Shown here: piece by piece, positions 1 through 37,148 of the stretch
Position numbering within the stretch: the stretch's first letter is position 1
Layout of the letters: each line of letters starts with the position of its first letter
Source: Candidatus Brevefilum sp.
Lineage (GTDB): Bacteria > Chloroflexota > Anaerolineae > Anaerolineales > Anaerolineaceae
Assembly: GCA_029210815.1 (NCBI GenBank)
Contig: JARGGB010000017.1
Location: forward strand, 1 to 48,815
Length of the DNA stretch: 48,815 nucleotides
Direction of reading: 5' to 3'
Program-made: the position numbers and the translations under genes
Notes under the pieces: generated by a model
Seen by the model: the letters and a program-made list of their open reading frames with translations, nothing else
The model's database searches: none
What the model was told of the DNA's origin: nothing

Positions 1-32
1 TGTCATATCAAATAAGAAACAGGAGCTTTTGG

Positions 33-413
33 ATGTCAGAAATTCACCGTTTCACAGGTAATCCGTCAGAAGATGTGTTTTCCTGGGAGAATGTTGAGAC
101 AAAAATTTTCAATACCGAAGACGTAAAAGGTGTGATCAAGAACGTGTTGGTTGGGCCGCAGGACGGCGCCCCAAACTTCATTATCCGCTTTTTCCAGGTG
201 CCGGTTGGCGAAAGTACCTTCAACCACGCCCATCCCCACGAGCACGGCATCGTCATCCTTAACGGAAAAGCCCGCGTCAACATTGAAGATAAAAGCTTCG
301 ATTTGAAGCCACATGATTCCGTGTTTATCACCGGGGGAGATCACCACCAGGTGAATAATACGGGCGATACCTCTTTAGGTTTCATCTGTGTGATCCCAGC
401 TGGGGCAGAATAA
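33..413 (+). CDS. Cupin-domain protein
   Basis: This 126-residue protein is a single small cupin barrel. The first cupin motif is visible around residues 64-75 (the stretch HAHPHEHGIVILNG, with the His-x-His and later His/Glu metal ligands). The second motif lies around residues 92-110, with a paired histidine (GGDHHQVNN). Such proteins bind a divalent metal and act as isomerases, dioxygenases or sugar-acid binding proteins; the exact substrate cannot be read from the sequence. The start is supported by AGGAG about 9 bases upstream. It is followed after 3 bases by an SMP-30 lactonase gene and then a sugar isomerase gene, so a role in sugar or sugar-acid breakdown is inferred. Confidence 0.85.
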   Translation: MSEIHRFTGNPSEDVFSWENVETKIFNTEDVKGVIKNVLVGPQDGAPNFIIRFFQVPVGESTFNHAHPHEHGIVILNGKARVNIEDKSFDLKPHDSVFITGGDHHQVNNTGDTSLGFICVIPAGAE

Positions 414-416
414 ACA

Positions 417-1292
417 ATGAAAACTTATCAGGCTGAACATTTATTCAGGGTATTAAATGCCCTTGGCGAAGGTCCCCTATGGCATCCAGTCGAAAACCGG
501 CTGTATTGGACGGACATTCTCACCGGTACCCTTTATCGCACCAATACTGACCTGACCATCCTTGAAAAAACATTTTTAGATATCCAGGTTGGTGCCTTTG
601 CCTTCCGAAAAAATGGCGGCTTGGTCCTGGCATCAGACCATGGCTTTATGGAATGGTCCTTTGAAGACCACCAAATTAATTACCTTTGGAATCCACTCAT
701 CGGTCAAATGGGTGTCCGCTTAAATGACGGAAAGGTTGACCCCGCAGGGCGATTTTGGGCTGGGAGCCTCGATATCCAGCATCAAAAAGCGAAACTCTAC
801 CGCCTCGACCCGGATGGCGGCCATCATACCATGCTTAAGGGAATCGGCATCTCCAACGGTATTGGTTGGAGCCCGGACAACAAGCGGATGTACTACACGG
901 ATTCCTACCAGTACACCATTTATGAATTTGATTACGATTTGGAATCAGGGGATATCACCAATCAGAAGCCCTTCGTTGTCCTGCCAAGAGATGAAAGGGA
1001 GATCGTTCCGGACGGATTATGCGTCGATGCTGAGGGCTATATTTGGAGCGCAAAGTGGAACGGTTGGGGAATCACTCGGTACAATCCTCAAGGTGAACCA
1101 GTGGCAAATGTCGAAGTGCCGGCACAGCGCGTCACATCCTGCTGCTTTGGCGGTAAAAATCTTGACCTCTTATTAATCACAACATCCCGGGCGGATCTCA
1201 GTGAAGAGGCATTATCAAACCAGCCTTATGCCGGGGATGTTTTTGTTTGCAAGGTCCCGGTACAGGGACGGGAAACAAATTTATTTGGATAA
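417..1292 (+). CDS. SMP-30/gluconolactonase family sugar lactonase
   Basis: The 291-residue protein has the six-bladed beta-propeller pattern of the SMP-30/gluconolactonase/LRE family. These enzymes hydrolyse sugar lactones to aldonic acids with a divalent metal. Expected metal-site elements are visible: the N-terminal Glu in ALGEGPLWHP (about residue 17), the Asn/Asp in VRLNDGKVDPAGRFWAG (about 101-115), the Asn in GISNGIGWSPD and the Asp in PDGLCVDAEGYIW. Its length is normal for the family. It sits 3 bases after the cupin gene and 12 before a TIM-barrel isomerase gene, so the four genes are probably one catabolic operon. The particular sugar is unknown. Confidence 0.88.
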   Translation: MKTYQAEHLFRVLNALGEGPLWHPVENRLYWTDILTGTLYRTNTDLTILEKTFLDIQVGAFAFRKNGGLVLASDHGFMEWSFEDHQINYLWNPLIGQMGVRLNDGKVDPAGRFWAGSLDIQHQKAKLYRLDPDGGHHTMLKGIGISNGIGWSPDNKRMYYTDSYQYTIYEFDYDLESGDITNQKPFVVLPRDEREIVPDGLCVDAEGYIWSAKWNGWGITRYNPQGEPVANVEVPAQRVTSCCFGGKNLDLLLITTSRADLSEEALSNQPYAGDVFVCKVPVQGRETNLFG

Positions 1293-1304
1293 AAAGGAGC
1301 AACA

Positions 1305-2267
1305 ATGCAAATAGGTGTATTAACCGTCTTATTCAGTCAAATGAAGTTCACAGATGTCCTTGATAAAGTCAAAGCCCTGGGCGTATCTGCTGTAGAGATC
1401 GGCACGGGCGGCTATCCCAGTGATGCTCACCTCAACCTCGATCAGCTCCTGGAAGATAAAGGTGTTAGGGAATCCTATTTACAAGAACTCAGCATGCGTG
1501 AGATGATCATCAGCGCCTTTAGCTGCCACGGCAACCCGATTCATCCTAACCCTGAAACAGCCCAAAAAGCAGACGATACTTTTCGCAAGACGGTACAGCT
1601 GGCACAGTTGATGAAGGTACCCGTTGTCAATACCTTCTCCGGTCTGCCGGCAGGCACCAAAGGGGACAAAATGCCCAACTGGGTCACCTGCCCCTGGCCG
1701 CCGCATTTCCTTGAGATCCTCAAATACCAATGGGATGATGTCGCCATACCCTATTGGAAAGATGCCAGCGCCTTTGCTGAGGATCACGGTGTGAAGATCG
1801 GCATCGAAATTCACCCAGGTATGCTGATCTACAATGTGGAAACCATGCTGCACATGCGCAGTGAAGCCGGGCCAGCTCTCGGCGCTAACTTTGATCCATC
1901 GCACCTGTTCTGGAATGGCGTCGATCCAATTGCAGCCATCCGTAAACTTGGCGATGCGATCCATCATGTGCACGGCAAAGATTGTTACGTTGATCCGCTG
2001 AACACCAGCATAAACGGCTGCAACGATCATACGCCTTATGACCAAATTCCAAAACGCTCCTGGACCTTCCGTACCATTGGCTACGGCCATGACCTCAAAT
2101 TCTGGAAGGATTTTGTCAGTGCGCTGCGCCTGGTCGGTTATGACCATGTCATCTCCATCGAACACGAGGATGCCATGATGTCCACAGAAGAAGGGTTACA
2201 AAAGGCGATCAGCGTGCTGAAGGAAGCAGTGATCTCAGAAAAACCCGGGGAGATGTACTGGGCATAA
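1305..2267 (+). CDS. Sugar phosphate isomerase/epimerase (xylose isomerase-like TIM barrel)
   Basis: The 320-residue protein belongs to the AP endonuclease 2/xylose isomerase-like TIM-barrel superfamily, often annotated sugar phosphate isomerase/epimerase. Metal ligands at the ends of successive strands are recognisable: Glu/His in GIEIHPGM (about residue 167), Asp and His in NFDPSHLFWNGVD (about 197-204), His in HHVHGKDC (about 224) and Glu/His in SIEHEDAMM (about 287). The start is preceded by AAAAGGAGCAACA. It is the third gene of the operon and is followed after one base by an HAD phosphatase gene. Isomerisation or epimerisation of a keto- or aldo-sugar is likely; the substrate is not determinable. 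Confidence 0.88.
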   Translation: MQIGVLTVLFSQMKFTDVLDKVKALGVSAVEIGTGGYPSDAHLNLDQLLEDKGVRESYLQELSMREMIISAFSCHGNPIHPNPETAQKADDTFRKTVQLAQLMKVPVVNTFSGLPAGTKGDKMPNWVTCPWPPHFLEILKYQWDDVAIPYWKDASAFAEDHGVKIGIEIHPGMLIYNVETMLHMRSEAGPALGANFDPSHLFWNGVDPIAAIRKLGDAIHHVHGKDCYVDPLNTSINGCNDHTPYDQIPKRSWTFRTIGYGHDLKFWKDFVSALRLVGYDHVISIEHEDAMMSTEEGLQKAISVLKEAVISEKPGEMYWA

Positions 2268-2268
2268 G

Positions 2269-3081
2269 ATGGGATCAAAAATAAAAGCCGTTCTTTGCCT
2301 GGATATCGATGGTACCCTGACCGATCATGATATGAAAATCCATCCCAAGGATATTGGGATCATCCAGGATTTTCCGGAGTCTGTTCTACCCATCCTGGCA
2401 ACGGGGAGGGACCTGATATCTGCAAAAAAGATCCTTGCGGAAAATCAAATCTATGAAAATGCCAGCCTTCCCCTGCCAGGTATTTTCATGAATGGCGGTG
2501 CTTCTTACCTGCCAGGTGAAAAACTGCTCATATCCCACAATTTTTCTCCTGAGACGCTCAAAACGTTGATAAACCTGGCGAAAGCTTATCCAGACTCAAC
2601 ATATGGCTTCTTTGGGACATCGTCGGTTTATTTTTTAAACCGCCTCCCAGAGATCCATAGGAATCCAAGGATCCAAATTCTGTCTCCCCAGGAACTCGAT
2701 GACAAGACTTTGCCAGAGACCATCGTAAAAATGATTGTGGTTGAAAAGGATAAAAGTAAGATAAAAGTGATCGAAAAGAGTGGACTTGAATTAGAGACTG
2801 AAATCGCGTACAGCCTGCCCTATATTCTTGAATTCACCCCCCCGGGGATCAACAAAGCTGTGGGATTGCCACCGCTCCTTCAGGAACTATCCCTGGAACA
2901 CGTCCCTGTATTCACAGCTGGTGACGGTCAAAATGATCTCGGTTTGTTCAATTACGCAGTGAAATCATTTGCGCCTTCTTATGCGCATCCAACCATCCTG
3001 GAACAGGCAGATCACATCATCGAGCGCGAAAAAGAAGGAATGCTGACGCCTATCCTGCAAGAGATAATCACTTCTGTTTGA
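2269..3081 (+). CDS. HAD-superfamily (Cof-like) phosphatase
   Basis: This 270-residue protein is an HAD hydrolase of the Cof/sucrose-phosphatase-like group with a C2 cap. Motif I is LDIDGTLTD (about residues 11-19), motif II the ATGRD loop (about 44-48), and motif IV is GDGQNDLGLF (about 223-232), with a conserved lysine upstream in INKAVGL. Enzymes of this group dephosphorylate sugar phosphates or similar small molecules through an aspartyl-phosphate intermediate. It begins one base after the isomerase stop, so it is translationally linked to the sugar-catabolic operon and probably acts on an intermediate or side product of that pathway. Confidence 0.87.
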   Translation: MGSKIKAVLCLDIDGTLTDHDMKIHPKDIGIIQDFPESVLPILATGRDLISAKKILAENQIYENASLPLPGIFMNGGASYLPGEKLLISHNFSPETLKTLINLAKAYPDSTYGFFGTSSVYFLNRLPEIHRNPRIQILSPQELDDKTLPETIVKMIVVEKDKSKIKVIEKSGLELETEIAYSLPYILEFTPPGINKAVGLPPLLQELSLEHVPVFTAGDGQNDLGLFNYAVKSFAPSYAHPTILEQADHIIEREKEGMLTPILQEIITSV

Positions 3082-3165
3082 AGCAGCAATCCTTCTCACA
3101 TGTAAATGATGAATTCACAATCATTATCTTATTGATTTCTGCATGATGCATTCAAGAGAAAAAGT

Positions 3166-3472
3166 GTGGACTCGGGAATGTCCTCATATCAAACAAGTGA
3201 ATCAAACACTAAAGACGTGATCTTATTGGGTTGCCAACCAGTTCATAAGGGTCCATAACACCTTTGCAACCATCGGCAATACAAAGACCAGCACTGGATA
3301 CATTAACAGCAATTTTCTCAATCAAGTCTTCTCGTATTCCCCTCTCTTTGAGGTTCATGATCAAGGAAGCATACATATCAGCCTGCTCTCGACCAACTTC
3401 AGCAGCGGTAATCTCAACCGTTCTGTACCTTCCCATTTTTTCCTCCTATCAAATAATTTTTCCCGAGTCCAC
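3166..3472. repeat. Perfect 13-bp inverted repeat flanking the small peptide gene
   Basis: GTGGACTCGGGAA at 3166-3178 is the exact reverse complement of TTCCCGAGTCCAC at 3460-3472. The right arm lies in the last codons of the radical SAM gene (V-D-S-G-K), and the left arm lies about 30 bases past the stop of the peptide gene, so the arms bracket that gene. They could be ends of a vanished small element or a long-range RNA stem; neither is proven. Confidence 0.6.
3209..3436 (-). CDS. Candidate RiPP precursor peptide (75 aa)
   Basis: I do not recognise the family. The 75-residue product begins 12 bases after the radical SAM/SPASM gene stop, and a strong AGGAGG sits in that gap, 5-6 bases before its ATG, so translation is well supported. 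Residues 1-45 are charged and predicted helical (GREQADMYASLIMNLKERG), as in a recognition leader. The C-terminal third is Gly/Ala/Cys-containing, with cysteines at 52 and 57 (LCIADGCKG) followed by a Pro/Tyr/Gly tail ending NPIRSRL. With its SPASM neighbour, the simplest reading is a precursor whose C-terminal part receives a radical-mediated crosslink, such as a Cys thioether. No protease or exporter gene is adjacent. It could instead be an unrelated small protein. Confidence 0.62.
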   Translation of the reverse strand: MGRYRTVEITAAEVGREQADMYASLIMNLKERGIREDLIEKIAVNVSSAGLCIADGCKGVMDPYELVGNPIRSRL

Positions 3473-4783
3473 TAACTGCTTAAATAATTTTTCACGCAAA
3501 AGACTGTTGACAATATCAGTTTTCGCAAAACATCGATGGGTTAATTCTTTTGGCCTGGACGATGACAAATACAACAAGCAGCCGCCCATGCATAGTGGAA
3601 GAACTTTGCAGGAGCTGCACTCATTATCTTTAAAAGGGCTCCAATGATCCCAAAGTGCCTGAATGCTGTTTTTATTGATTTCGATCGTTCCATCTGACAT
3701 TAATCGGCCGTAATATTCACTCTTATGCCCCAGATATTTTGTACATCGGTTGACAAGTCCATATGGATCAACCAAATAAGAATTGAATTGATAAGCATTA
3801 CAAAATGAGGTACATGGAATCGGATACCCTCTCATAACCTTGAATCCTAAATTGTCTGCTAATGACCCAAGTCTTTTCTCGACAGCCCAAAATTCATCTG
3901 GTGGCATGGTCCAAGTTTCAATCTGGTCAACACATTTTGGTGACATTGCTGCTGAAAATGATAGGAAAATGCCCTCACGGAACGGATAAAGGTAATTTTC
4001 CAGCAGCGAAGGTATTGATTTGACATTGCGTTTATCAATGTTGACCCTGATGGTTAGCCTATTAAATAAACCAATGGAGGTTCCGATATTTTCATAAATT
4101 TGATCAAAAGTAGAAAGTCCACCAACCAGGAAACGGCGTGAATCATGGACATCAGGCGGTCCATCTAAAGTGATTTGCACATCCGTCACCCGGCAGTCTT
4201 GAAGGATTTTTGCGACCCTTGGGCTTAGTAAGTATCCATTTGTTGAAATGCGAGCGCTGTAATTAACACCTTGATGATCCACGAGCTTAAATATTTGCTG
4301 TGTCATTGATTCTATACGGTCAATACATAGAAGCGGTTCGCCCCCAAACCATGCAATATGTAAATTTTCTAAACCATCTAAATTGCTTTTAATAAGCTTA
4401 ATAATCTGATCACTTACCCGATCATCCATCGATATGTTCACATGGTCTTCATAGCAATAAACACAGCGAAAATTACAGGCCAAGGTCAGGACGACCGCCA
4501 GTGCAAACGCTTTCTCACCTTTTCTCGCGTTCCAGTGGATTTCCTCCATCCATTTCATCTCATCAAAACTTTCACGAACAAGAAATCCGTTTTCGTTTAA
4601 AAATTGAAGGGATTTTTGGTCGAATTTCACATCAGGGCAATGAGATCTATTTGTTAAACAATCCTTTAATGACGCCAATGGTTCATTTGAAACATCCAAA
4701 ATAGCTGTTGTTCTGGTATTGATCAGATAATTTTCTCCCCCTTCTGTTTGCGTCAATAAGTTGAATTTTGATGGCTTATACAT
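3449..4783 (-). CDS. Radical SAM/SPASM peptide maturase
   Basis: The start is taken at 4783, where AAAGGAACTCCG precedes ATG; upstream in-frame codons lack such a site. The 444-residue protein has an N-terminal region (1-90) typical of peptide maturases (NYLINTRTTAILDV and then GFLV). The radical SAM cluster motif is C103-x3-C107-x2-C110, followed by GGEP at 147-150. A full SPASM domain follows: C328-x13-G-x4-C347, C389-x2-C392-x5-C398-x3-C402 and C418, enough for two auxiliary 4Fe-4S clusters. Family members cleave SAM to a 5'-deoxyadenosyl radical and modify a peptide or protein side chain. The adjacent 75-residue gene is the probable substrate. The gene appears more AT-rich than its neighbours, which fits acquisition by transfer. 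An anaerobic sulfatase-type maturase is less likely because no sulfatase is nearby. Confidence 0.9.
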   Translation of the reverse strand: MYKPSKFNLLTQTEGGENYLINTRTTAILDVSNEPLASLKDCLTNRSHCPDVKFDQKSLQFLNENGFLVRESFDEMKWMEEIHWNARKGEKAFALAVVLTLACNFRCVYCYEDHVNISMDDRVSDQIIKLIKSNLDGLENLHIAWFGGEPLLCIDRIESMTQQIFKLVDHQGVNYSARISTNGYLLSPRVAKILQDCRVTDVQITLDGPPDVHDSRRFLVGGLSTFDQIYENIGTSIGLFNRLTIRVNIDKRNVKSIPSLLENYLYPFREGIFLSFSAAMSPKCVDQIETWTMPPDEFWAVEKRLGSLADNLGFKVMRGYPIPCTSFCNAYQFNSYLVDPYGLVNRCTKYLGHKSEYYGRLMSDGTIEINKNSIQALWDHWSPFKDNECSSCKVLPLCMGGCLLYLSSSRPKELTHRCFAKTDIVNSLLREKLFKQLVDSGKII

Positions 4784-4953
4784 CGGAGTTCCTTTGGCGG
4801 ATCGAAATGGAAAAAATATCAGATTTGAACAAGACTCCAATATTTGGACTAATTTTTATAACGATCACCGGTTTCTGTGAAATGATTAACGAAAACTTCC
4901 TTGATGTATCTACGGCTTAGTTGGCTCCGTAATTATAAATATCCCTATCAACA

Positions 4954-4983
4954 ATTATATAATAAGTACAAATGAAAAATCAA
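4954..4983 (-). promoter_or_regulatory. Candidate promoter of the radical SAM/peptide locus
   Basis: On the minus strand TTGATT (4978-4983) is separated by 18 bases from TATAAT (4954-4959). Transcription would begin near 4947 and give a leader of roughly 165 bases before the maturase start. The 360-base stretch 4784-5143 holds no gene that I can support. A second TATAAT lies at 5052-5057 with a poorer -35. Confidence 0.5.
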
Positions 4984-5143
4984 CAATTTATGTTGCTAAA
5001 AAAAATTGCATTCAATCTCAAAATCCCCTCGAAATCTTTGGATTAGATGATATTATATGGTCTTCTTGATGATCCAAAAAAGAGAAATTACATCAACAAC
5101 TTGTGAGAAATCCCCACAAACCGATAATTTTTAAGAAAAATTC

Positions 5144-5941
5144 TTACCCAAACCTGCCGGAGATGTAATTTTCAGTCAATTTCTGATCCGGAAAGGTAAA
5201 TATTCGGGTCGTTTCCCCATATTCGACCAAGTAACCCGCCCGATCCTCATCCATATTGAAAAAAGCCGTAAAATCAGATGCTCGGGCGGCTTCCTGCATG
5301 TTATGGGTAACAATTACAATTGTGTAATCTTTCTTTAGTTCCTGTAGCAAATCTTCAATCTTGAGCGTGGCAATCGGATCCAGAGCAGAGGCAGGTTCAT
5401 CCATCAAAATTACGTTTGGCTTTACCGCTAACGCGCGCGCAATGCAAAGTCGCTGCTGCTGACCCCCTGACAAAGCCAATCCGCTTTGATCCAATACATC
5501 TTTTACTTCATCCCATAAGGCAGCCTGGCGAAGGGAGTGTTCCACAAGGTCATCCATATTGCCTGAGTACTTGGTCACCTTTCGAGCGCCCCAGGCAATG
5601 TTCTCATAAATACTCTTTGGAAATGGGTTTGGCTTTTGGAATACCATACCAATATGACGTCTGACTTCAACCGGGTCTATATCATCATCATAAATATTGA
5701 TGCCATTGAAAATCACTTCCCCGGTAGCATGGTATTCTGGTATCAGATCATTCATTCTATTCAAAGAACGTAAAACTGTGCTTTTTCCGCAACCGGATGG
5801 CCCAATGATCGCTGTGATCTTATTTCGTTCAATATTCATATTGACATCTTTTACCGCAAGGAAATCCCCATAAAACAAATTAAGGTCCTTGGCTTCAAAA
5901 ACATAACGGCCATTGCTTGTTTCTGGGTTCGAACTGGCCAT
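5144..5941 (-). CDS. pstB: Phosphate ABC transporter ATP-binding protein PstB
   Basis: This 265-residue ATPase powers high-affinity phosphate import. Walker A is GPSGCGKST (about residues 47-55), with the PstB-typical [15 protein letters not shown] just after it. The Q-loop is [19 protein letters not shown], the signature [16 protein letters not shown], Walker [14 protein letters not shown] and the switch histidine is in IVTHNMQEA. Length is normal. Its ATG directly abuts the pstA stop, with GGAGA inside the end of pstA as ribosome site, so the two are translationally coupled. It is the last pst gene; no phoU follows, which is unusual because phoU often ends such operons. Confidence 0.97.
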
Positions 5942-7216
5942 TTATAGTCTCCGTGAATATTTGTTTCGTAACAAGACTGCTATGGCATTCATAGACAGTA
6001 ATAGGATCAAAAGCACAATAATTGCTCCCGCAGCAATATTGCGAAATACATCTTGTGGACGTGCAGTCCATTGATAAATCTGGATAGGCAAGGTGGTAAA
6101 TTTTGAGAAGGGACCATCTGGGTCAAATGTAATGAAGGTAGACGCTCCAACAACCACCAAGGGAGCAGTTTCTCCGATAGCACGGGATATTGCCAAAATC
6201 GTCCCCGTGAGAATACCTGGGAGGGCACTGGGTAATACGTGGTTCCAAATTGTCTGCCATCGCGTAGCGCCCATACCGTAGCTTGCTTGTCGTAATGAAT
6301 TTGGTACTGCTTTGATCGCTTCCTGCGCGTTAATGATAATTAGAGGCAGAATTAACAATCCCAAAGTAAGCCCTGCGGACAATATCGTGCGGCCATTGGC
6401 TGTCATCGGGTCTGTATATCCGAAGACTGCACCACTTGTAATCAAATTAAGGGCACGCACAAATAAAGCTAACCCTAAAATACCATAAATAATGGACGGA
6501 ACACCGGCAAGATTATTAATATTGGTTTGAATGATTCGGTTTACAAAACTGTCTTTAGCATACTCCTGCAAATATACGGCAGCCCCAACACCGATCGGGA
6601 ATGAAAATACAATTGAGATAAAAATTATCCACAGAGAACCTAAAATTGCGGTTCTAACCCCTGCGTTGAGCGGATTGGAAGACTGTGGTAATGTAATAAA
6701 ACTGGGTGTGATCCAGCTTTTGAAGATCAAATTTGCTTCAGTGTACTTCTCTGTCATCTCCTGTTGGATTTCATTTACTTTAAACAAGGATTCATATAAA
6801 GTCCACTGCGCAACTGATTTTGGATCGACCACCCGTTCCAGTACAAGATTGTATACATTTTCTCGAGACCGTTCCTCCCAAGTCATTCCACTTTCAAAAC
6901 GGCGCATAAGACCTTTGGAAACATGGTCACCAAGGATTGTGACAAGGTTTTCCTTAGACATTTCCTCAATTGATACACCATCTATTGCCAATTCTTCTGG
7001 TTGAATACTATTCTCCAGAGCAATATAACCAAAAGCATTGTTAAATACGTTCAATAATAAAGCGGTTAATGCAACAATACCTACCAATGTTGATGCAGCA
7101 AATATAACATGCCAGATTTTACTGAGAGCATGCCTTTTGGATAATTTTTTTGTGTCGGCAAAATAATCATCTTCTGACATAGAAAGTCTGATTTCTTCAT
7201 CCTGTGTTGCATTCAT
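5942..7216 (-). CDS. pstA: Phosphate ABC transporter permease PstA
   Basis: The start is taken at ATG 7216, preceded by GGAAGG 7 bases away and overlapping the pstC stop by one base. The protein is 424 residues, far longer than E. coli PstA (296). After a hydrophilic cytoplasmic N-terminus and a first membrane segment (about 35-60) comes an extra region of about 125 residues (60-185), mostly acidic and helical, before the conserved permease core. The core shows the EAA-type loop (QEAIKAVPNSLRQASYGMGATRWQTI) and GETAPLVVVGA. With PstC it forms the membrane channel for phosphate. The large insert presumably lies outside the membrane next to PstS. Confidence 0.95.
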   Translation of the reverse strand: MNATQDEEIRLSMSEDDYFADTKKLSKRHALSKIWHVIFAASTLVGIVALTALLLNVFNNAFGYIALENSIQPEELAIDGVSIEEMSKENLVTILGDHVSKGLMRRFESGMTWEERSRENVYNLVLERVVDPKSVAQWTLYESLFKVNEIQQEMTEKYTEANLIFKSWITPSFITLPQSSNPLNAGVRTAILGSLWIIFISIVFSFPIGVGAAVYLQEYAKDSFVNRIIQTNINNLAGVPSIIYGILGLALFVRALNLITSGAVFGYTDPMTANGRTILSAGLTLGLLILPLIIINAQEAIKAVPNSLRQASYGMGATRWQTIWNHVLPSALPGILTGTILAISRAIGETAPLVVVGASTFITFDPDGPFSKFTTLPIQIYQWTARPQDVFRNIAAGAIIVLLILLLSMNAIAVLLRNKYSRRL

Positions 7217-8340
7217 CAATAAACCTTCCGAAATCTCTTAACAATCCAATGACTGAAAATGTTGAGGATAAGTGTCATGAAAAATAATAATAAACCTATC
7301 GCAAAAATGCTATTGTAATCCAGCGAATTATAACTAAGATCTCCCCCACTGATACGAACAATATGACCGGTCATCGTCTCAGCCGCTTTGAAGGGATTGA
7401 ATGTGAAATTGGGACCCGCTCCAGAAGCAATCGCCACTATCATCGTTTCACCTATTGCCCGAGATATGGCAACAATAAAGGCAGCCGCAATTCCAGAAAT
7501 AGCCGATGGTACCACTACTCGCAAAGAAGTTTCCAATTTGGTCGCTCCCAATCCATAGGATGCCTCCCGCAAGCCATTAGGTACCGCGCTGAGGGCATCC
7601 TCACTCATCGAACTGACCAGTGGGATAATCAAGATTCCGATCACAATTCCCGCAGAAGCAGTATTATAAATTTCAACCACATCTACGCCAAAAATATACC
7701 GTAATAACGGTGTCATAAAGGTCAGAGCAAAATATCCGTAAACCACTGTGGGAATTCCTGCTAAGACTTCCAGGATTGGCTTCAAGATGCTTCGAAATCG
7801 ATGGCTTGCATATTCACTCAGGTATATTGCCACGCTCAAACCAACAGGAAGTGCAACTGTAATTGCAATCAAGCTTGTCATTAATGTCGCATTTACCAAA
7901 GCCCAAATTCCAAACTTACCAATTTGTGGATTCCATTCCGTCTTGCCAAAGAATTCCAAGAATGTTACCTGTGTAGCTTTTTCTAATGTGGTACCCTCAT
8001 TGTGAAATACCGGTTCAGTATCCTCAGCACCCCGAACAACTTTCAATCGTTCGTCCTGAACATTAACAACTAACATTTCTTCACTTCGTAATCGAACCAA
8101 GTCACCTTCATTTATGGTTGCGCCAGATTCACTTACAATAAACTCTGTAAATCCTGGTTCCAAACTCTGGGTAATCACTTTGTTGGTATTTTCCCATTGT
8201 TTACGAGTGAAGAAAAGCATAGCTTCGGTTCCAAGTTCATAAACAATGCCAATCGTTACCAAAATTGATAATGCGGCAGCAAGGAATAAAAAACCTTGAA
8301 TAATTGATTCCCCGATACGTCTTTTCTTCTTTAGATCCAT
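7216..8340 (-). CDS. pstC: Phosphate ABC transporter permease PstC
   Basis: I place the start at ATG 8340 ([12 protein letters not shown]); a GTG four codons upstream is an alternative, and neither has a strong ribosome site. The 374-residue protein has a first membrane segment at about 15-38 and then an insert of about 60-70 residues before the conserved core. The core includes [33 protein letters not shown] and the EAA-like [26 protein letters not shown] loop. The insert carries an EEMLV...LKVVRG...EPVFHNEGT pattern resembling a small beta module common in phage structural proteins. With PstA it forms the phosphate channel. Confidence 0.95.
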
Positions 8341-8414
8341 AATTAATCTCACATCATGAATTTCATGAATAAAATTATTGCTAAAAAATACTATGCATTT
8401 CTAATTGCACAATA

Positions 8415-8446
8415 GATGACCAGCAAATAAAAACTTGCTGGTCATC
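8415..8446 (-). promoter_or_regulatory. Perfect 12-bp hairpin between pstS and pstC
   Basis: GATGACCAGCAA (8415-8426) and TTGCTGGTCATC (8435-8446) are perfectly complementary with an 8-base loop. It lies in the 176-base gap after pstS. There is no U-run after the stem on the minus strand, so a strong terminator is unlikely. An mRNA-stabilising or processing hairpin that keeps pstS message more abundant than pstCAB is the likeliest reading. Confidence 0.6.
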
Positions 8447-8516
8447 CATTTTAGTCAGGGCAAATCTTGCATCATTATATCCCAAGTATGGTTCCTTAGG
8501 TTTCCTCGAGAACAAC

Positions 8517-9536
8517 TTATTTCATTGCGTCCAGCCAAACCTGCCCGGCATTATCCAGTGCCTGTTCGTTAGCAGGAAAGTACCCGACATCTACAATTTC
8601 TTCATTGACATAGGTCAAAACAAAGTTCAAAAATCCAGCCACCTGCGGTTTATCCTGCATGATGGTTGCATCAGAATACATGAACAAAGGGCGAGACAGA
8701 GGATAAGTATTGTTATCAACATTTTCCTGTACGGCTTCCACGCTGTCAATCGCCAGAATTTTTAATGCGTCCTGGTTCTCAGCATAATAGGCATATCCAA
8801 AATAGCCAATCGCATATGGGCTGCCCAGGATACCCTGCACCAGCACATTGTCGTCTTCGCTCAACTGTGTGTTGCTAGCCTGCAAATGGGGTTCTTCATT
8901 TTCATCGAAGACTTCTTCAACGAAGAAGTCAAAAGTGCCGCTGTCTGTGCCAGGGATGTAGCGCAGAATCTCTTCTTCCGGCCATTCGGGATTCACATCA
9001 GCCCAGGTCTCGTAGCCTTCGCCGAAGATCATCGCCAGTTCTTCCATGGTAATATCGGTCAGGAAATCGTTCTCCTGACTGACAGTCACTGCGAGCGCAT
9101 CAGTGCCAACACGGAATTCAATCGGTGTACGCCCAATTGCTTCACAACTGGCTAATTCTTCCTCTTTGATTTGGCGGCTGGCGTTGGAAATATCGGTTTC
9201 TCCTACTTCGCAGAAGCGTTCAAAACCGCCTCCAGAGCCTATGCTGTCAATCGTGATATTGCCAGCAAATCCTTCGTCTTCAAAGCGTTCGGCCATTCGT
9301 TCAGCCAGTGGGAATACGGTGGAACTGCCAGCGATTACAATATCACCACTCAGTTCCAGGGGATTTACCTCAGGAAGCATTGTCCCGATTCCCTCTTCTT
9401 CATCCTGAGGTTCTTCAACTTCTGTTTCTTCAATTTCCGGCTCTTCCGTCGTCACATTCTGTTCTGGTGTGCAAGCAGCGAACAGGATTGACATCAATAG
9501 AACGAGGATTGATAAAACAAATACTTTACGACGCAT
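8517..9536 (-). CDS. pstS: Phosphate-binding lipoprotein PstS
   Basis: The start is ATG 9536, preceded by AAAAAGGAGAAAAA; the reading frame stays open upstream but without a better site. The 339-residue product has a signal peptide (MRRKVFVLSILVLLMSILFA) with lipobox FAAC, then an acidic linker rich in Glu. The binding domain shows the PBP pattern of PstS: IAGSSTVFPLAE (phosphate-binding TVFP-type loop), IGSGGGFERFCEVGETDISNASR, RVGTDALAVTV and GTDSGTFDFFVEEVF. It is membrane-anchored by lipid and hands phosphate to PstCA. It heads the pst operon and is followed by a stable hairpin. Confidence 0.96.
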   Translation of the reverse strand: MRRKVFVLSILVLLMSILFAACTPEQNVTTEEPEIEETEVEEPQDEEEGIGTMLPEVNPLELSGDIVIAGSSTVFPLAERMAERFEDEGFAGNITIDSIGSGGGFERFCEVGETDISNASRQIKEEELASCEAIGRTPIEFRVGTDALAVTVSQENDFLTDITMEELAMIFGEGYETWADVNPEWPEEEILRYIPGTDSGTFDFFVEEVFDENEEPHLQASNTQLSEDDNVLVQGILGSPYAIGYFGYAYYAENQDALKILAIDSVEAVQENVDNNTYPLSRPLFMYSDATIMQDKPQVAGFLNFVLTYVNEEIVDVGYFPANEQALDNAGQVWLDAMK

Positions 9537-9574
9537 TTTTTCTCCTTTTTGAGAAATAATAAAATTTATTGACA

Positions 9575-9647
9575 TTAAACATGATAACAAAGGGCGATTA
9601 ACAGAGAAAAAAGCAGTAATTAACGTCGTATGAAATACAAGTTAAAT
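9575..9647. promoter_or_regulatory. Possible phosphate-control sites upstream of pstS
   Basis: Hexamers TTAAAC (9575), TTAACA (9598), TTAACG (9620) and TTAAAT (9642) recur at 23, 22 and 22 bases on the plus strand, two helical turns apart. They resemble the TTAACA half-sites of Gram-positive PhoP boxes. The region is AT-rich, so chance is a real possibility. Confidence 0.3.
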
Positions 9648-21302: not shown

Positions 21303-21479
21303 ACAAAAAAATACCCCGCCGTGCCGTGTGGAGCTGAGTTTTGAACCTGCGTAAGCAGGTTTGTCGTACCCATCCGCTCTGCCTTGACATAAGTCTATCG
21401 CATTACGTGATGGAGTTCTGACGTTAGTAAAGGGTGTTGGCCCAAAACTGGTATGCTGCATCACGAACACAGCAGGGTA
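21303..21479 (-). ncRNA. ssrS: 6S RNA
   Basis: Read on the minus strand, TACCCTGCTGTG (21479-21468) and CACGGCGGGGTA (21323-21312) form a 12-pair closing stem with G-U wobbles, followed by a T-run. Just inside the 5' arm is GTTCGTGATGCAGC. On the 3' side is a perfect hairpin AACCTGC-TTAC-GCAGGTT (around 21343-21360) before the closing stem. This arrangement (closing stem, central bubble with a 3' hairpin, long terminal arm, about 177 bases) matches 6S RNA, including TGTTCG and GGTTCAA elements seen in E. coli 6S. 6S RNA mimics an open promoter and sequesters housekeeping RNA polymerase in slow growth. Exact ends are estimates. Confidence 0.72.
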
Positions 21480-21485
21480 AATTAC

Positions 21486-31791: not shown

Positions 31792-32583
31792 ATGAATGCT
31801 TTTTTTGCCACAATTCATACATCCTTTCGAAGGCAGCTCACCTATCGCGCCGCCAACCTGTCAGGTCTGTTTACGAACCTGATGTTTGGATTTTTTCGCG
31901 CAGCGGTTTTGATTGCTTTATACCAGGAACAAACCAGTGTGAATGGTCTCTCTATTCGCGGCGCCATCACCTATGCTGGCTTAACTCAATCCCTGATTGG
32001 CGTCATGAGTTTTTTCCATTGGTACGATCTGATGCATACCGTGTACGACGGCCGGGTTGGCGCTGACCTTCTCAGACCCATCAATTACTTTTCATACTGG
32101 TTAGGGATTGACATTGGACGCGCATTTGGCTCTTTGATCATTCGTGGGCTTCCCTTGTTCCTGGTTTTCTCATTTTTCTATAACATCATTCTGCCGGAGT
32201 CGCTCATCCAATGGAGCCTCTTTGCTTTGTCCATCGTGTTTGCTTTATTGATTAGCTTCTCGTGGCGTTTTTTAGTCAATCTGGCTTCATTTTGGACACC
32301 AAATGCCCTTGGCATTGGGCGTTTTGCATTTGGTTTGAGCTGGATATTCTCAGGATTCTATTTTCCCTTAGCTTTATTCCCTGATTGGCTGGCAAATTTC
32401 TGCCGATTGACACCTTTTGGCGCAAGTCTTTATTTCCCCATCCAGGTTTTTATCGGAAATATCCGGGGGGCTGAACTTCTGCAAGGGTTCTTAATCCAGA
32501 TTTTCTGGATTGTCACCCTGGTCATCTTTGGGCACATTATCCTCGCCCAGGGTGTAAAAAAATTGGTGATCCAGGGCGGCTAA
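31792..32583 (+). CDS. ABC-2 type exporter permease 1
   Basis: The 263-residue protein has about six membrane segments and resembles ABC-2 permeases of the DUF990/PF06182 type (an N-terminal soluble helix, ANLSGLFTNLMFGFFRAAVLIALYQ, then TYAGLTQSLIGVMSFFHW). It is followed after one base by a second similar permease and then by an ATPase, so it is half of an exporter's membrane part. Two-permease sets of this kind are found widely in bacteria; no substrate is evident. No Shine-Dalgarno is visible before the ATG. Regulation was not seen. Confidence 0.85.
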   Translation: MNAFFATIHTSFRRQLTYRAANLSGLFTNLMFGFFRAAVLIALYQEQTSVNGLSIRGAITYAGLTQSLIGVMSFFHWYDLMHTVYDGRVGADLLRPINYFSYWLGIDIGRAFGSLIIRGLPLFLVFSFFYNIILPESLIQWSLFALSIVFALLISFSWRFLVNLASFWTPNALGIGRFAFGLSWIFSGFYFPLALFPDWLANFCRLTPFGASLYFPIQVFIGNIRGAELLQGFLIQIFWIVTLVIFGHIILAQGVKKLVIQGG

Positions 32584-32584
32584 G

Positions 32585-33394
32585 ATGCGTCGAAATTTAT
32601 CCTTGTTGTTCAGGTTATTAAGAATCCAGATCCGGTCACAATTGCAGTATCCAGCATCCTTTGTCATGGAGGTCCTCAGCCAGGCAATGATCCTGGGATT
32701 TTTCTTTGCAGCCTTTGCCCTGACATTAAGCCAATTTGGAGATATAGGTGGTTGGACTCTTGGCGAGGTGGCGCTCCTCTGGGGCTTGGCAGAATTCAGT
32801 TTTGGCATGATGGATATGGTCTTCAGCGGTTTTGATTATGATGCCTTTGGTCCCTTAGTTATCAAAGGTACTTTTGACCAACTGCTTTTAAGGCCTGTTA
32901 ATATCACTTTGCAGGTGTTGGGATCACGCTTTGTTTTACGCCGATTGGGAAAGATCATTGAGGGATTGATCATCTTTATCATCGGTCTGAGCCTGTCCAA
33001 TGTGGACTGGACACTGGGAAGGATCCTCTACATCCCGGTTCTGATCCTCTGCCAGGTTCTGTTTTTTGGGAGCCTGTTCATTTTTGGTGCCACCACAACA
33101 TTCTGGACAAAAGAACGCCTTGAAATTCTAAATGTATTTACTTATGGCGGCAGTGAAATTATGTCCTATCCCATGCATATTTTCCCCAGGGCAATCCGAC
33201 TGCTTTTCTCATTTGTCGTGCCGGCAATTTTTCTAAGTTACTTCCCTATGATTTACATACTAGACAAACCCAACCCGTTAAATATGCCGGTATTTACTTC
33301 ATTTTTAGCGCCATTCATTGCGATAAGCATGTTTTGGCTCTCATTAAAATTCTGGCGTTTTGGTATTAAGAACTATCAAAGCACAGGGAGTTAG
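32585..33394 (+). CDS. ABC-2 type exporter permease 2
   Basis: The 269-residue protein has about six membrane segments with the same overall plan as the upstream permease: a basic N-terminus (RRNLSLLFRLLRIQIRSQLQYP) and LGEVALLWGLAEFSFGMMDMVFSGFDYDAFGPLVIKGTFDQLLLRPVN, a pattern (GxxD..LLRP) shared with the DUF990 group and with the first permease (GADLLRP). It begins one base after that gene's stop and overlaps nothing downstream; the ATPase starts four bases later. It probably forms a heterodimeric channel. Confidence 0.86.
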   Translation: MRRNLSLLFRLLRIQIRSQLQYPASFVMEVLSQAMILGFFFAAFALTLSQFGDIGGWTLGEVALLWGLAEFSFGMMDMVFSGFDYDAFGPLVIKGTFDQLLLRPVNITLQVLGSRFVLRRLGKIIEGLIIFIIGLSLSNVDWTLGRILYIPVLILCQVLFFGSLFIFGATTTFWTKERLEILNVFTYGGSEIMSYPMHIFPRAIRLLFSFVVPAIFLSYFPMIYILDKPNPLNMPVFTSFLAPFIAISMFWLSLKFWRFGIKNYQSTGS

Positions 33395-33397
33395 ATT

Positions 33398-34390
33398 ATG
33401 GAAGCAATCATTAAGGCTGACCGTTTATCTAAAGATTATAAAATCTATAAGGACCACAAGGGTTATCTCGGGGCTTTACGAAACTTATTTGACCGCCGTT
33501 TCACTTTGGTCCACGCTGTCAATGATGTCAGCTTCAAAATTTACCCGGGTGAATTGATAGGGTATATCGGCCCAAATGGTGCAGGAAAATCAACAACCAT
33601 TAAAATGCTGACAGGATTGCTGGTGCCAACTTCAGGCGAGGTTCAGGTCAACGGTTTCGTCCCCTGGAAAGACCGCAAGGACTACGTCAAACACATTGGG
33701 GCTGTTTTTGGACAGCGAACCACATTATGGTGGGATTTGCCTGTTCGGGACTCTCTTGATCTGTTGAAACACATCTACGAGATACCCTCGGACCGATTCA
33801 AGCAAAATTTAAATTCCTTTCGTGAAATCCTTGAGCTGGATTCCTTCATGGATACCCCCGTCCGCTCTCTTTCTTTAGGCCAGAGAATGCGCGCAGACCT
33901 TTGTGCGGCATTACTGCATGATCCCAAATTGATCTTTTTAGATGAACCCACCATCGGTTTGGATGTCGTCGCAAAACAAAGGGTGCGGGAATTTATTCAA
34001 TTTATTAATGCCAAAAGGGGAACAACCATCCTGTTAACAACCCACGACACCGCGGATATTGCTAAACTTTGCAAACGCGTTATGATCATTGATCATGGGA
34101 AAATTCTGTATGACGGTGAATTCGATGAATTGATCAAATACTATGGAGGTAGCAGGGTTCTGAGTGTGGAATTCGCCGAGTTTTATCAATACCCAACGAT
34201 AGATCAGGCAAAAATTGTCCAGAGAGATGGGGTGAATGTGATCTATTCCTTTAAGAGGGAAAACATATCAGCATCAAAACTCATTCATCAACTCTCGGAG
34301 AAATATCGCATTCGTGACCTTGAAGTGCAGGACCAGGCGATTGAAGACGTCATTCGGGATATCTACGAAAATCAATTGCTATATAATTAA
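33398..34390 (+). CDS. ABC exporter ATP-binding protein
   Basis: The 330-residue ATPase has Walker A GPNGAGKST (about residues 58-66), a Q-loop region GAVFGQRTTLWWDLPVRDSLDLLKHIY, the signature LSLGQRMRADL, Walker B LIFLDEPTIGLD and the H-loop TTHDTADI. An extra C-terminal domain (about 230-330) is typical of drug-type (DrrA/NatA-like) ATPases. GGGAG precedes the ATG. With the two upstream permeases it would form a complete ABC-2 exporter. Daunorubicin-like annotation reflects the family, not a demonstrated substrate. Confidence 0.93.
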   Translation: MEAIIKADRLSKDYKIYKDHKGYLGALRNLFDRRFTLVHAVNDVSFKIYPGELIGYIGPNGAGKSTTIKMLTGLLVPTSGEVQVNGFVPWKDRKDYVKHIGAVFGQRTTLWWDLPVRDSLDLLKHIYEIPSDRFKQNLNSFREILELDSFMDTPVRSLSLGQRMRADLCAALLHDPKLIFLDEPTIGLDVVAKQRVREFIQFINAKRGTTILLTTHDTADIAKLCKRVMIIDHGKILYDGEFDELIKYYGGSRVLSVEFAEFYQYPTIDQAKIVQRDGVNVIYSFKRENISASKLIHQLSEKYRIRDLEVQDQAIEDVIRDIYENQLLYN

Positions 34391-36943: not shown

Positions 36944-37016
36944 GCCAACGTAGCTCAGCTGGTAGAGCAGACGCTTCGTAAGCGCCAGGTCGAGGGTTCA
37001 AATCCCTCCGTTGGCT
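36944..37016 (+). tRNA. tRNA-Thr (anticodon CGU)
   Basis: The 73-base gene folds as a standard cloverleaf. The acceptor is GCCAACG/CGTTGGC, the D arm GCTC/GAGC, the anticodon loop TTCGTAA (anticodon CGT, reading ACG) and the T arm GAGGG-TTCAAAT-CCCTC. The discriminator is T and no CCA is encoded. The anticodon stem GACGC/GCGCC has one A-C mismatch at position 28:42. Confidence 0.96.
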
Positions 37017-37148
37017 CAATTAGTTGCAAACAAAACAGCTCACCAGGCTGTTTTAATTTTAACAGATAAACCAGATTTTTTCTTTGTGGTTATAATAGGG
37101 ATGGTAAATCTGCTGAATAACAAACAATAAAAATGTGGAGGCAATTGA

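Follow-up and report, generated by a model that had tools for sequence, protein, structure and literature searches.

The described systems closest to the locus reported here pair a SPASM radical SAM maturase with a cysteine-containing precursor. In the CefA/CefB (Cys-every-fifth, NF038107) system, the SPASM maturase adjoins a precursor carrying the C-x-[AG]-D-[AG]-C unit, an arrangement that the present pair resembles. The four CefA-type precursors read here are 187–679 aa in length and contain many such units, whereas the peptide described here has 75 aa and one unit, with no similarity found elsewhere along its length. A likeness to the Clo7bot group (TIGR04334; ctpM of Paraclostridium) lies in the start of the enzyme, whose first eight residues, MYKPSKFN, are also found in a Lachnospiraceae relative (locus L020). 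The Clo7bot locus L113 is unlike the present pair, as it encodes a tandem series of nine short peptides (41–53 aa, 4–8 Cys) and has a gene for an ABC transporter nearby. The ranthipeptide system PapB/PapA shares the use of a SPASM maturase and by analogy suggests a Cys–Asp thioether for the present pair. PMC9413430 describes PapB as linking Cys to either Asp or Glu and as tolerating Cys-Xn-Asp for n = 0–6; its substrate PapA carries C-x3-D motifs and six links, whereas the present peptide offers C-x2-D and C-x4-D. An RRE is described for CteB, a ranthisynthase, and for SkfB, a sactisynthase, and the donor cysteine may be bound by the SPASM or twitch clusters of these enzymes (PMC8326336). No paper describing the present locus was found among the open-licence papers searched, nor any that combined two of radical SAM, TIGR04463, Clo7bot, OhkG and FlmE, and the term 'Cys-every-fifth' did not occur in the open-licence papers found on CefA and radical SAM. 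Specialists expect such orphan pairs.

The locus lies in a 48,815-nt stretch of Candidatus Brevefilum sp. (contig JARGGB010000017.1), hereafter the window, whose gene content would fit Chloroflexota, and is composed of two genes on the minus strand. The first gene encodes a radical SAM/SPASM maturase of 444 aa (3449–4783). The second (3209–3436; 75 codons) encodes a putative precursor peptide of 75 aa, in which cysteines 52 and 57 are the only cysteines and are both read in the translation where the sequence-only reading had placed them. The two genes are separated by 12 nt (3437–3448), and direct reading of this gap reveals the Shine-Dalgarno sequence AGGAGG (3447–3442, minus strand) followed by five A residues and the ATG, so the perfect AGGAGG claimed earlier is present. 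In the scanned stretches beside the enzyme gene, three ORFs of at least 15 aa have an SD-like sequence upstream: the peptide gene, an 18-aa frame within it and the 3′-terminal part of pstB. The pair appears to be flanked by a gene for a HAD phosphatase and by a phosphate operon of the Pst type. No exporter or protease gene was seen adjoining the pair when the ORF list of the window was read by eye, in keeping with the earlier description of the locus as isolated.

Both genes show a codon usage that is unusual for the window. For the peptide gene the codon score is 0.128, compared to a mean of 0.283 for in-frame stretches (n = 294, from 23 window genes), 5% of which score lower. Its score is reached by 2.4% of out-of-frame stretches (n = 1470), and the peptide frame thus beats 97.6% of them. 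The radical SAM gene scores 0.070, and the lowest score among the 23 whole window genes is 0.181. The GC3 of the two genes is 0.36 and 0.37; as pstA and pstC likewise have a GC3 of 0.36, this value alone is no sign of foreign origin.

The pair occupies an island of approximately 2 kb (3058–5132, no strand assigned) between the HAD-like gene and pstB, and these are the only two genes seen within it. The bounds of the island are the limits of DNA similarity to the congener G012, and the 24 bases at its start belong to the end of the HAD-like gene, which has diverged there. Judged by the HAD-like protein, G012 is the nearest congener, and the four genes upstream of the island are 90–95% identical to it at the protein level. 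In blastn, positions 1–3057 of the window align with G012 (L061) at 90% and positions 5133–5523 at 77%, with 26 bp lying between the two segments in G012. Neither the enzyme nor the peptide matches the junction region of this congener. The pair is also missing from G004, in which the ends of the HAD-like gene and pstB are 8 bp apart, and from G006, in which a different gene adjoins pstB. The earlier description can be extended: the pair is an insertion missing from the corresponding junction in three congeners. These alignments are most simply read as an insertion gained between two convergent genes, loss in the congeners being less probable. No transposase-like gene was seen by eye among the ORFs of the island. 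The adjacent Pst operon (5144–9590) also differs from that of the sister G012, in which the best matches to pstB, pstA, pstC and pstS are 67, 41, 36 and 32% (L061); Pst operons of the window's type are found in G004 and G006 at 79–87%.

The enzyme contains a Pfam radical SAM domain (4.6E-15). When the enzyme is aligned with 26 relatives, all 27 sequences have the CxxxCxxC cysteines (103, 107 and 110) and the seven SPASM cysteines (328, 347, 389, 392, 398, 402 and 418). The enzyme thus has the CxxxCxxC motif and the seven-Cys SPASM domain that define a SPASM radical SAM peptide maturase in the broad sense, and the claim of a full SPASM radical SAM gene holds, with an intact ORF and all ten cluster-ligand cysteines kept. 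The best NCBIfam model is TIGR04463 (rSAM_vs_C_rich; 1.8E-73, residues 11–403), yet the score of 247.8 bits falls short of the cut-off of 525. The second-best model, the Clo7bot maturase TIGR04334, gives 220.6 bits (2.9E-65, cut-off 600), followed by CefB (NF038107; 184.7 bits, 2.5E-54, cut-off 600), the geopeptide maturase model (167.1 bits, 6.2E-49), the FlmE/OhkG model (146.9 bits) and PapB (NF047865; 121.6 bits, 4.2E-35, cut-off 340), all under their cut-offs. Weaker matches are exhibited to DynA (2.4E-24), QhpD (1.4E-23), YhhB (1.5E-18) and the anaerobic sulfatase maturase (8.4E-18). A PADLOC viperin match (3.4E-11) and a match to PHROG 1802 (1.9E-33) stem from the common radical SAM core and were not used as evidence.

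Using phmmer, residues 8–230 of the enzyme align with residues 16–238 of the protein data bank entry 5wgg, which we take to be CteB. With a 15-row profile of the enzyme, the N-terminus aligns only with 8vpo (5–426), and the alignment with 5wgg begins only at 92. The N-terminus gave no RRE-type match in Pfam; DUF3879 was found at 0.055, under the cut-off. The fold model of the enzyme has a pLDDT of 38 and is unusable.

Relatives of the enzyme are few and distant. In the tree of the 27 enzymes it forms the longest end branch (2.37) with no supported sister group, the bootstrap not having settled, and its best full-length identity among these sequences is 31%. The top identity in any search is 35%, over residues 62–403. 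The genome samples searched overlap. Among 400 genomes of the phylum, the single match at E ≤ 1E-40 is the enzyme's own genome; five of 147 family genomes match at E ≤ 1E-25, its own included and the others at no more than 34% identity, and the 15 other genomes of the genus give no match at this threshold. The TIGR04463 model detects 4/400 genomes at E ≤ 1E-50, including the enzyme's own, and none above its cut-off. In the phylum of the Lachnospiraceae relative, 11 of 348 genomes contain a total of 14 matches to the enzyme at 30–35% identity (E ≤ 1E-40). One further relative among genome contigs is 28% identical, and 43 plasmid records match at E ≤ 1E-15, with identities of up to 32.7% among the matches listed. 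Judged by its sequence, the enzyme is best regarded as an intact yet outlying member of the SPASM peptide-maturase group.

The 75-aa peptide does not match any family in Pfam, NCBIfam, PHROGs or PADLOC, and no convincing homologue was found in 101 relatives, 396 class genomes, plasmids, phages, viral contigs or PDB sequences. Matches at E ≤ 1 were present in 17 of the 101 relatives, its own genome included (best other 0.058), and matches at E ≤ 0.1 in nine of the 396 class genomes, again with its own (best other 0.013). These weak matches were taken as chance. No similar short gene was seen at the loci inspected, namely five of the 17 other places in the relatives (L003, L005, L007, L008 and L010 of L002–L018) and six of the eight other loci in the class genomes (L095, L096, L097, L098, L101 and L003, leaving out L099 and L100). 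Two PDB matches (E 0.004 and 0.006, BURRH) were also judged to be chance. When the peptide was compared by blastp and phmmer with 1898 short ORFs from 29 maturase loci, the best E value was 5.6, but the resulting list drew attention to the CxADGC units. Recurrent adjacency of peptide homologues to SPASM enzymes, named in the sequence-only reading as the support to look for, was thus not observed, since no convincing homologue was found either with or without a radical SAM gene. Single-sequence folding predicts helices at residues 11–31 and 36–50 and a disordered tail bearing the cysteines, with low confidence (pLDDT 51.5). Helices followed by a disordered tail would fit a leader plus core but prove nothing; in this putative layout, the N-terminal helices form the leader and the C-terminal region the core.

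The candidate core contains the motif C52-I-A-D55-G-C57 (C-x2-D-x-C; 3266–3283, minus strand), which was assessed by motif comparison and a CefA-unit profile. The sequence-only reading knew of no precursor family with the LCIADGCKG region; this has to be amended, since CefA-type precursors do contain CxADGC units (CPADGC in L029, CAADGC in L041). Residues 52–59 show a 75% match within the CefA-like protein of L041, at an E value of 5.7. The motif comparison is post hoc, having been made after CxADGC caught attention. It included four CefA-type precursors, one annotated as CefA (Methylomagnum plasmid NZ_AP019784.1) and three read from L024, L029 and L041; at these three loci, of which L024 and L029 belong to the window's own family, CefA-like Cys-every-fifth precursors of 187–259 aa lie beside SPASM maturases. 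In the four precursors, 36 of 84 Cys are followed by Asp at +3, and no other offset from 1 to 7 has more than two Asp. At L043/L123, several short peptides with C-x2-D-x-C repeats such as CDNDRC and CGSDVC are encoded in series beside one SPASM maturase, and in the five L043 peptides Asp is found at +3 after 20 of 40 Cys, the next highest count being 9, at +5.

Overall, C-x2-D-x-C was present in 9/28 other candidate precursors, comprising 4/4 of the CefA-type, 4/5 of the L043 peptides, 1/9 of those at the Clo7bot locus L113 and 0/10 of the others. All 28 carry at least three Cys, compared to two in the 75-aa peptide. A wider set of 31 peptides from 13 regions (147 Cys), picked by Cys count and SD and in many cases probably not genes, contained the motif in three peptides, all of the L043 set already counted. 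The background consisted of 333 mechanical ORFs (minimum length 250 aa) with 1551 Cys, antisense frames included; ORFs with at least six C-x4-C had been removed beforehand, which excludes CefA-like proteins. In this background C-x2-D-x-C was found 0 times and C-x4-C 34 times. A general rule of C-x2-[DENQ]-x-C for the precursors of this clade was rejected. On the CefA-unit profile, the first unit of the peptide (CIADG) scores 4.24, against a CefA mean of 7.82, and the second (CKGVM) scores −5.93. The value of 4.24 is reached by 0/158 Cys 5-mers of window ORFs and by 8 of 20,000 shuffles of the peptide, 525 of which contain any C-x4-C.

The pair can be filed under none of the named families, since the enzyme is under their cut-offs and the peptide falls outside the definitions of CefA, Clo7bot and PapA precursors. 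CefA is defined by Cys recurring at every fifth residue, and the peptide has a single C-x4-C unit; against Clo7bot stand the enzyme's 220.6 bits and a peptide with two Cys and no NCBIfam match, and against PapB the 121.6 of 340 bits and the lack of a CX3D motif. The proposal of a candidate undescribed RiPP system is partly upheld, in that SPASM-maturase models score best, the peptide is precursor-like and no named family scores above cut-off, and it falls short on recurrence. In its mode of action the pair would resemble a SPASM RiPP pair, with a small-scale CefA/CefB as the nearest parallel.

The reading that we prefer, with a probability of roughly 0.5, is that of a minimal, horizontally gained RiPP pair whose maturase modifies the core of the peptide, most likely through a non-alpha thioether between Cys52 and Asp55, as in ranthipeptides. 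The pairing itself is likely, and we infer that the 75-aa peptide is the substrate of the enzyme. The enzyme would bind the helical N-terminal part of the peptide, and the 5′-deoxyadenosyl radical together with two auxiliary clusters would modify the C-terminal core. The Cys52–Asp55 (C-x2-D) thioether would be the most likely product and is proposed by analogy with PapB, whose model the enzyme also matches; a second thioether between Cys57 and Asp62 (C-x4-D) may perhaps be formed. The two genes are spaced by 12 nt with AGGAGG, share atypical codon usage and stand alone in one insertion, all of which speaks for this reading, as do the enzyme's matches to peptide-maturase models and its ten kept ligand cysteines. 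The C-x2-D-x-C unit common to the peptide and to the CefA-type and L043 precursors points to Cys–Asp chemistry. Against this reading stand the lack of a convincing peptide homologue, an enzyme under all cut-offs with an unsupported tree position, a motif that is post hoc and not general, the presence of two Cys only, a first unit scoring well under the CefA mean, the misfit of the second unit and the absence of an adjoining leader protease or exporter.

The strongest alternative keeps the peptide as substrate and changes the chemistry, to a sactipeptide linkage (S to alpha-carbon), a Cys-free C–C or C–O crosslink or epimerisation, with the cysteines perhaps in a disulfide. The enzyme is divergent and weakly matches makers of other linkages, DynA and YhhB among them, which makes such a product a serious if less probable possibility. 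The best models are maturases of Cys-rich peptides, however, PapB scores above DynA and YhhB, and Cys and Asp are also indicated by the shared C-x2-D-x-C unit. It is rather unlikely that the peptide is an accessory or regulatory small protein with the substrate encoded elsewhere in the genome: no homologue with conserved cysteines was found and its two Cys are fewer than in any other candidate, but it carries the C-x2-D-x-C unit, and as only two genes are seen in the island, any partner would be a chance resident of the genome. Maturation of the QhpD or sulfatase-maturase kind, in which thioether bonds would stabilise the peptide as a small protein subunit, is improbable; the enzyme weakly matches both models and 75 aa is longer than most short candidate precursors, but no oxidoreductase or sulfatase gene was seen by eye in the island and the Cys-bearing end is predicted, at low confidence, to be disordered. 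A decaying or inactive island without function, as the missing transporter and protease, the lack of close relatives and the atypical codon bias might suggest, is very improbable given two intact frames, a perfect ribosome-binding site before the peptide gene and the retention of all ligand cysteines.

More tentatively, we suggest that the locus may represent a new RiPP family of just two mobile genes, one for an outlying SPASM maturase and one for the 75-aa peptide with its single C-x2-D-x-C unit, the product of which would stay and act inside the cell or be exported by borrowed machinery. The peptide would then be the smallest natural substrate of a Cys-x2-Asp crosslinking rule covering the repeats of CefA type, the peptides of L043 type and the present peptide; this suggestion as a whole is more doubtful than the preferred reading. 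The value of the pair lies in a very small testable substrate and a clean two-gene insertion. If the preferred reading is true, a two-gene system with a single candidate motif would open the bond chemistry of the CefB/TIGR04463 maturases to direct testing, with simpler MS/MS reading than for a CefA-type protein of many units, and would indicate that a maturase and its precursor can move as a bare pair.

Two inverted repeats are present at the locus. A perfect 13-nt repeat flanks the peptide gene, with one arm at 3166–3178 (plus strand) and the other at 3460–3472 (minus strand) within the 3′ end of the radical SAM gene; no further perfect copy of it is present in the genome. Its statistics are weak, as such repeats occur in 67 of 1000 resampled sequences and in 17 of 94 real stretches. 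The RNA fold across the repeat has a z-score of −2.21, with 2 of 100 shuffles equally good, and in the mRNA, pairing of the arms would enclose the entire peptide frame. An imperfect 19-nt repeat (79%; 3093–3111 and 5091–5109) lies near both ends of the island, with no other copy in the genome having fewer than two mismatches. An invertible cassette or mobile element was considered and rejected, repeats like the first being frequent by chance, and neither repeat is claimed as a mechanism. Elsewhere in the window, three genes at 31792–34390 resemble by eye two ABC-2 type permeases and an ATPase, approximately 27 kb from the pair and with no link to it. A 6S RNA (Rfam, 66.6 bits) is encoded at 21309–21481 on the minus strand, and a tRNA-Thr is located at 36944–37017.
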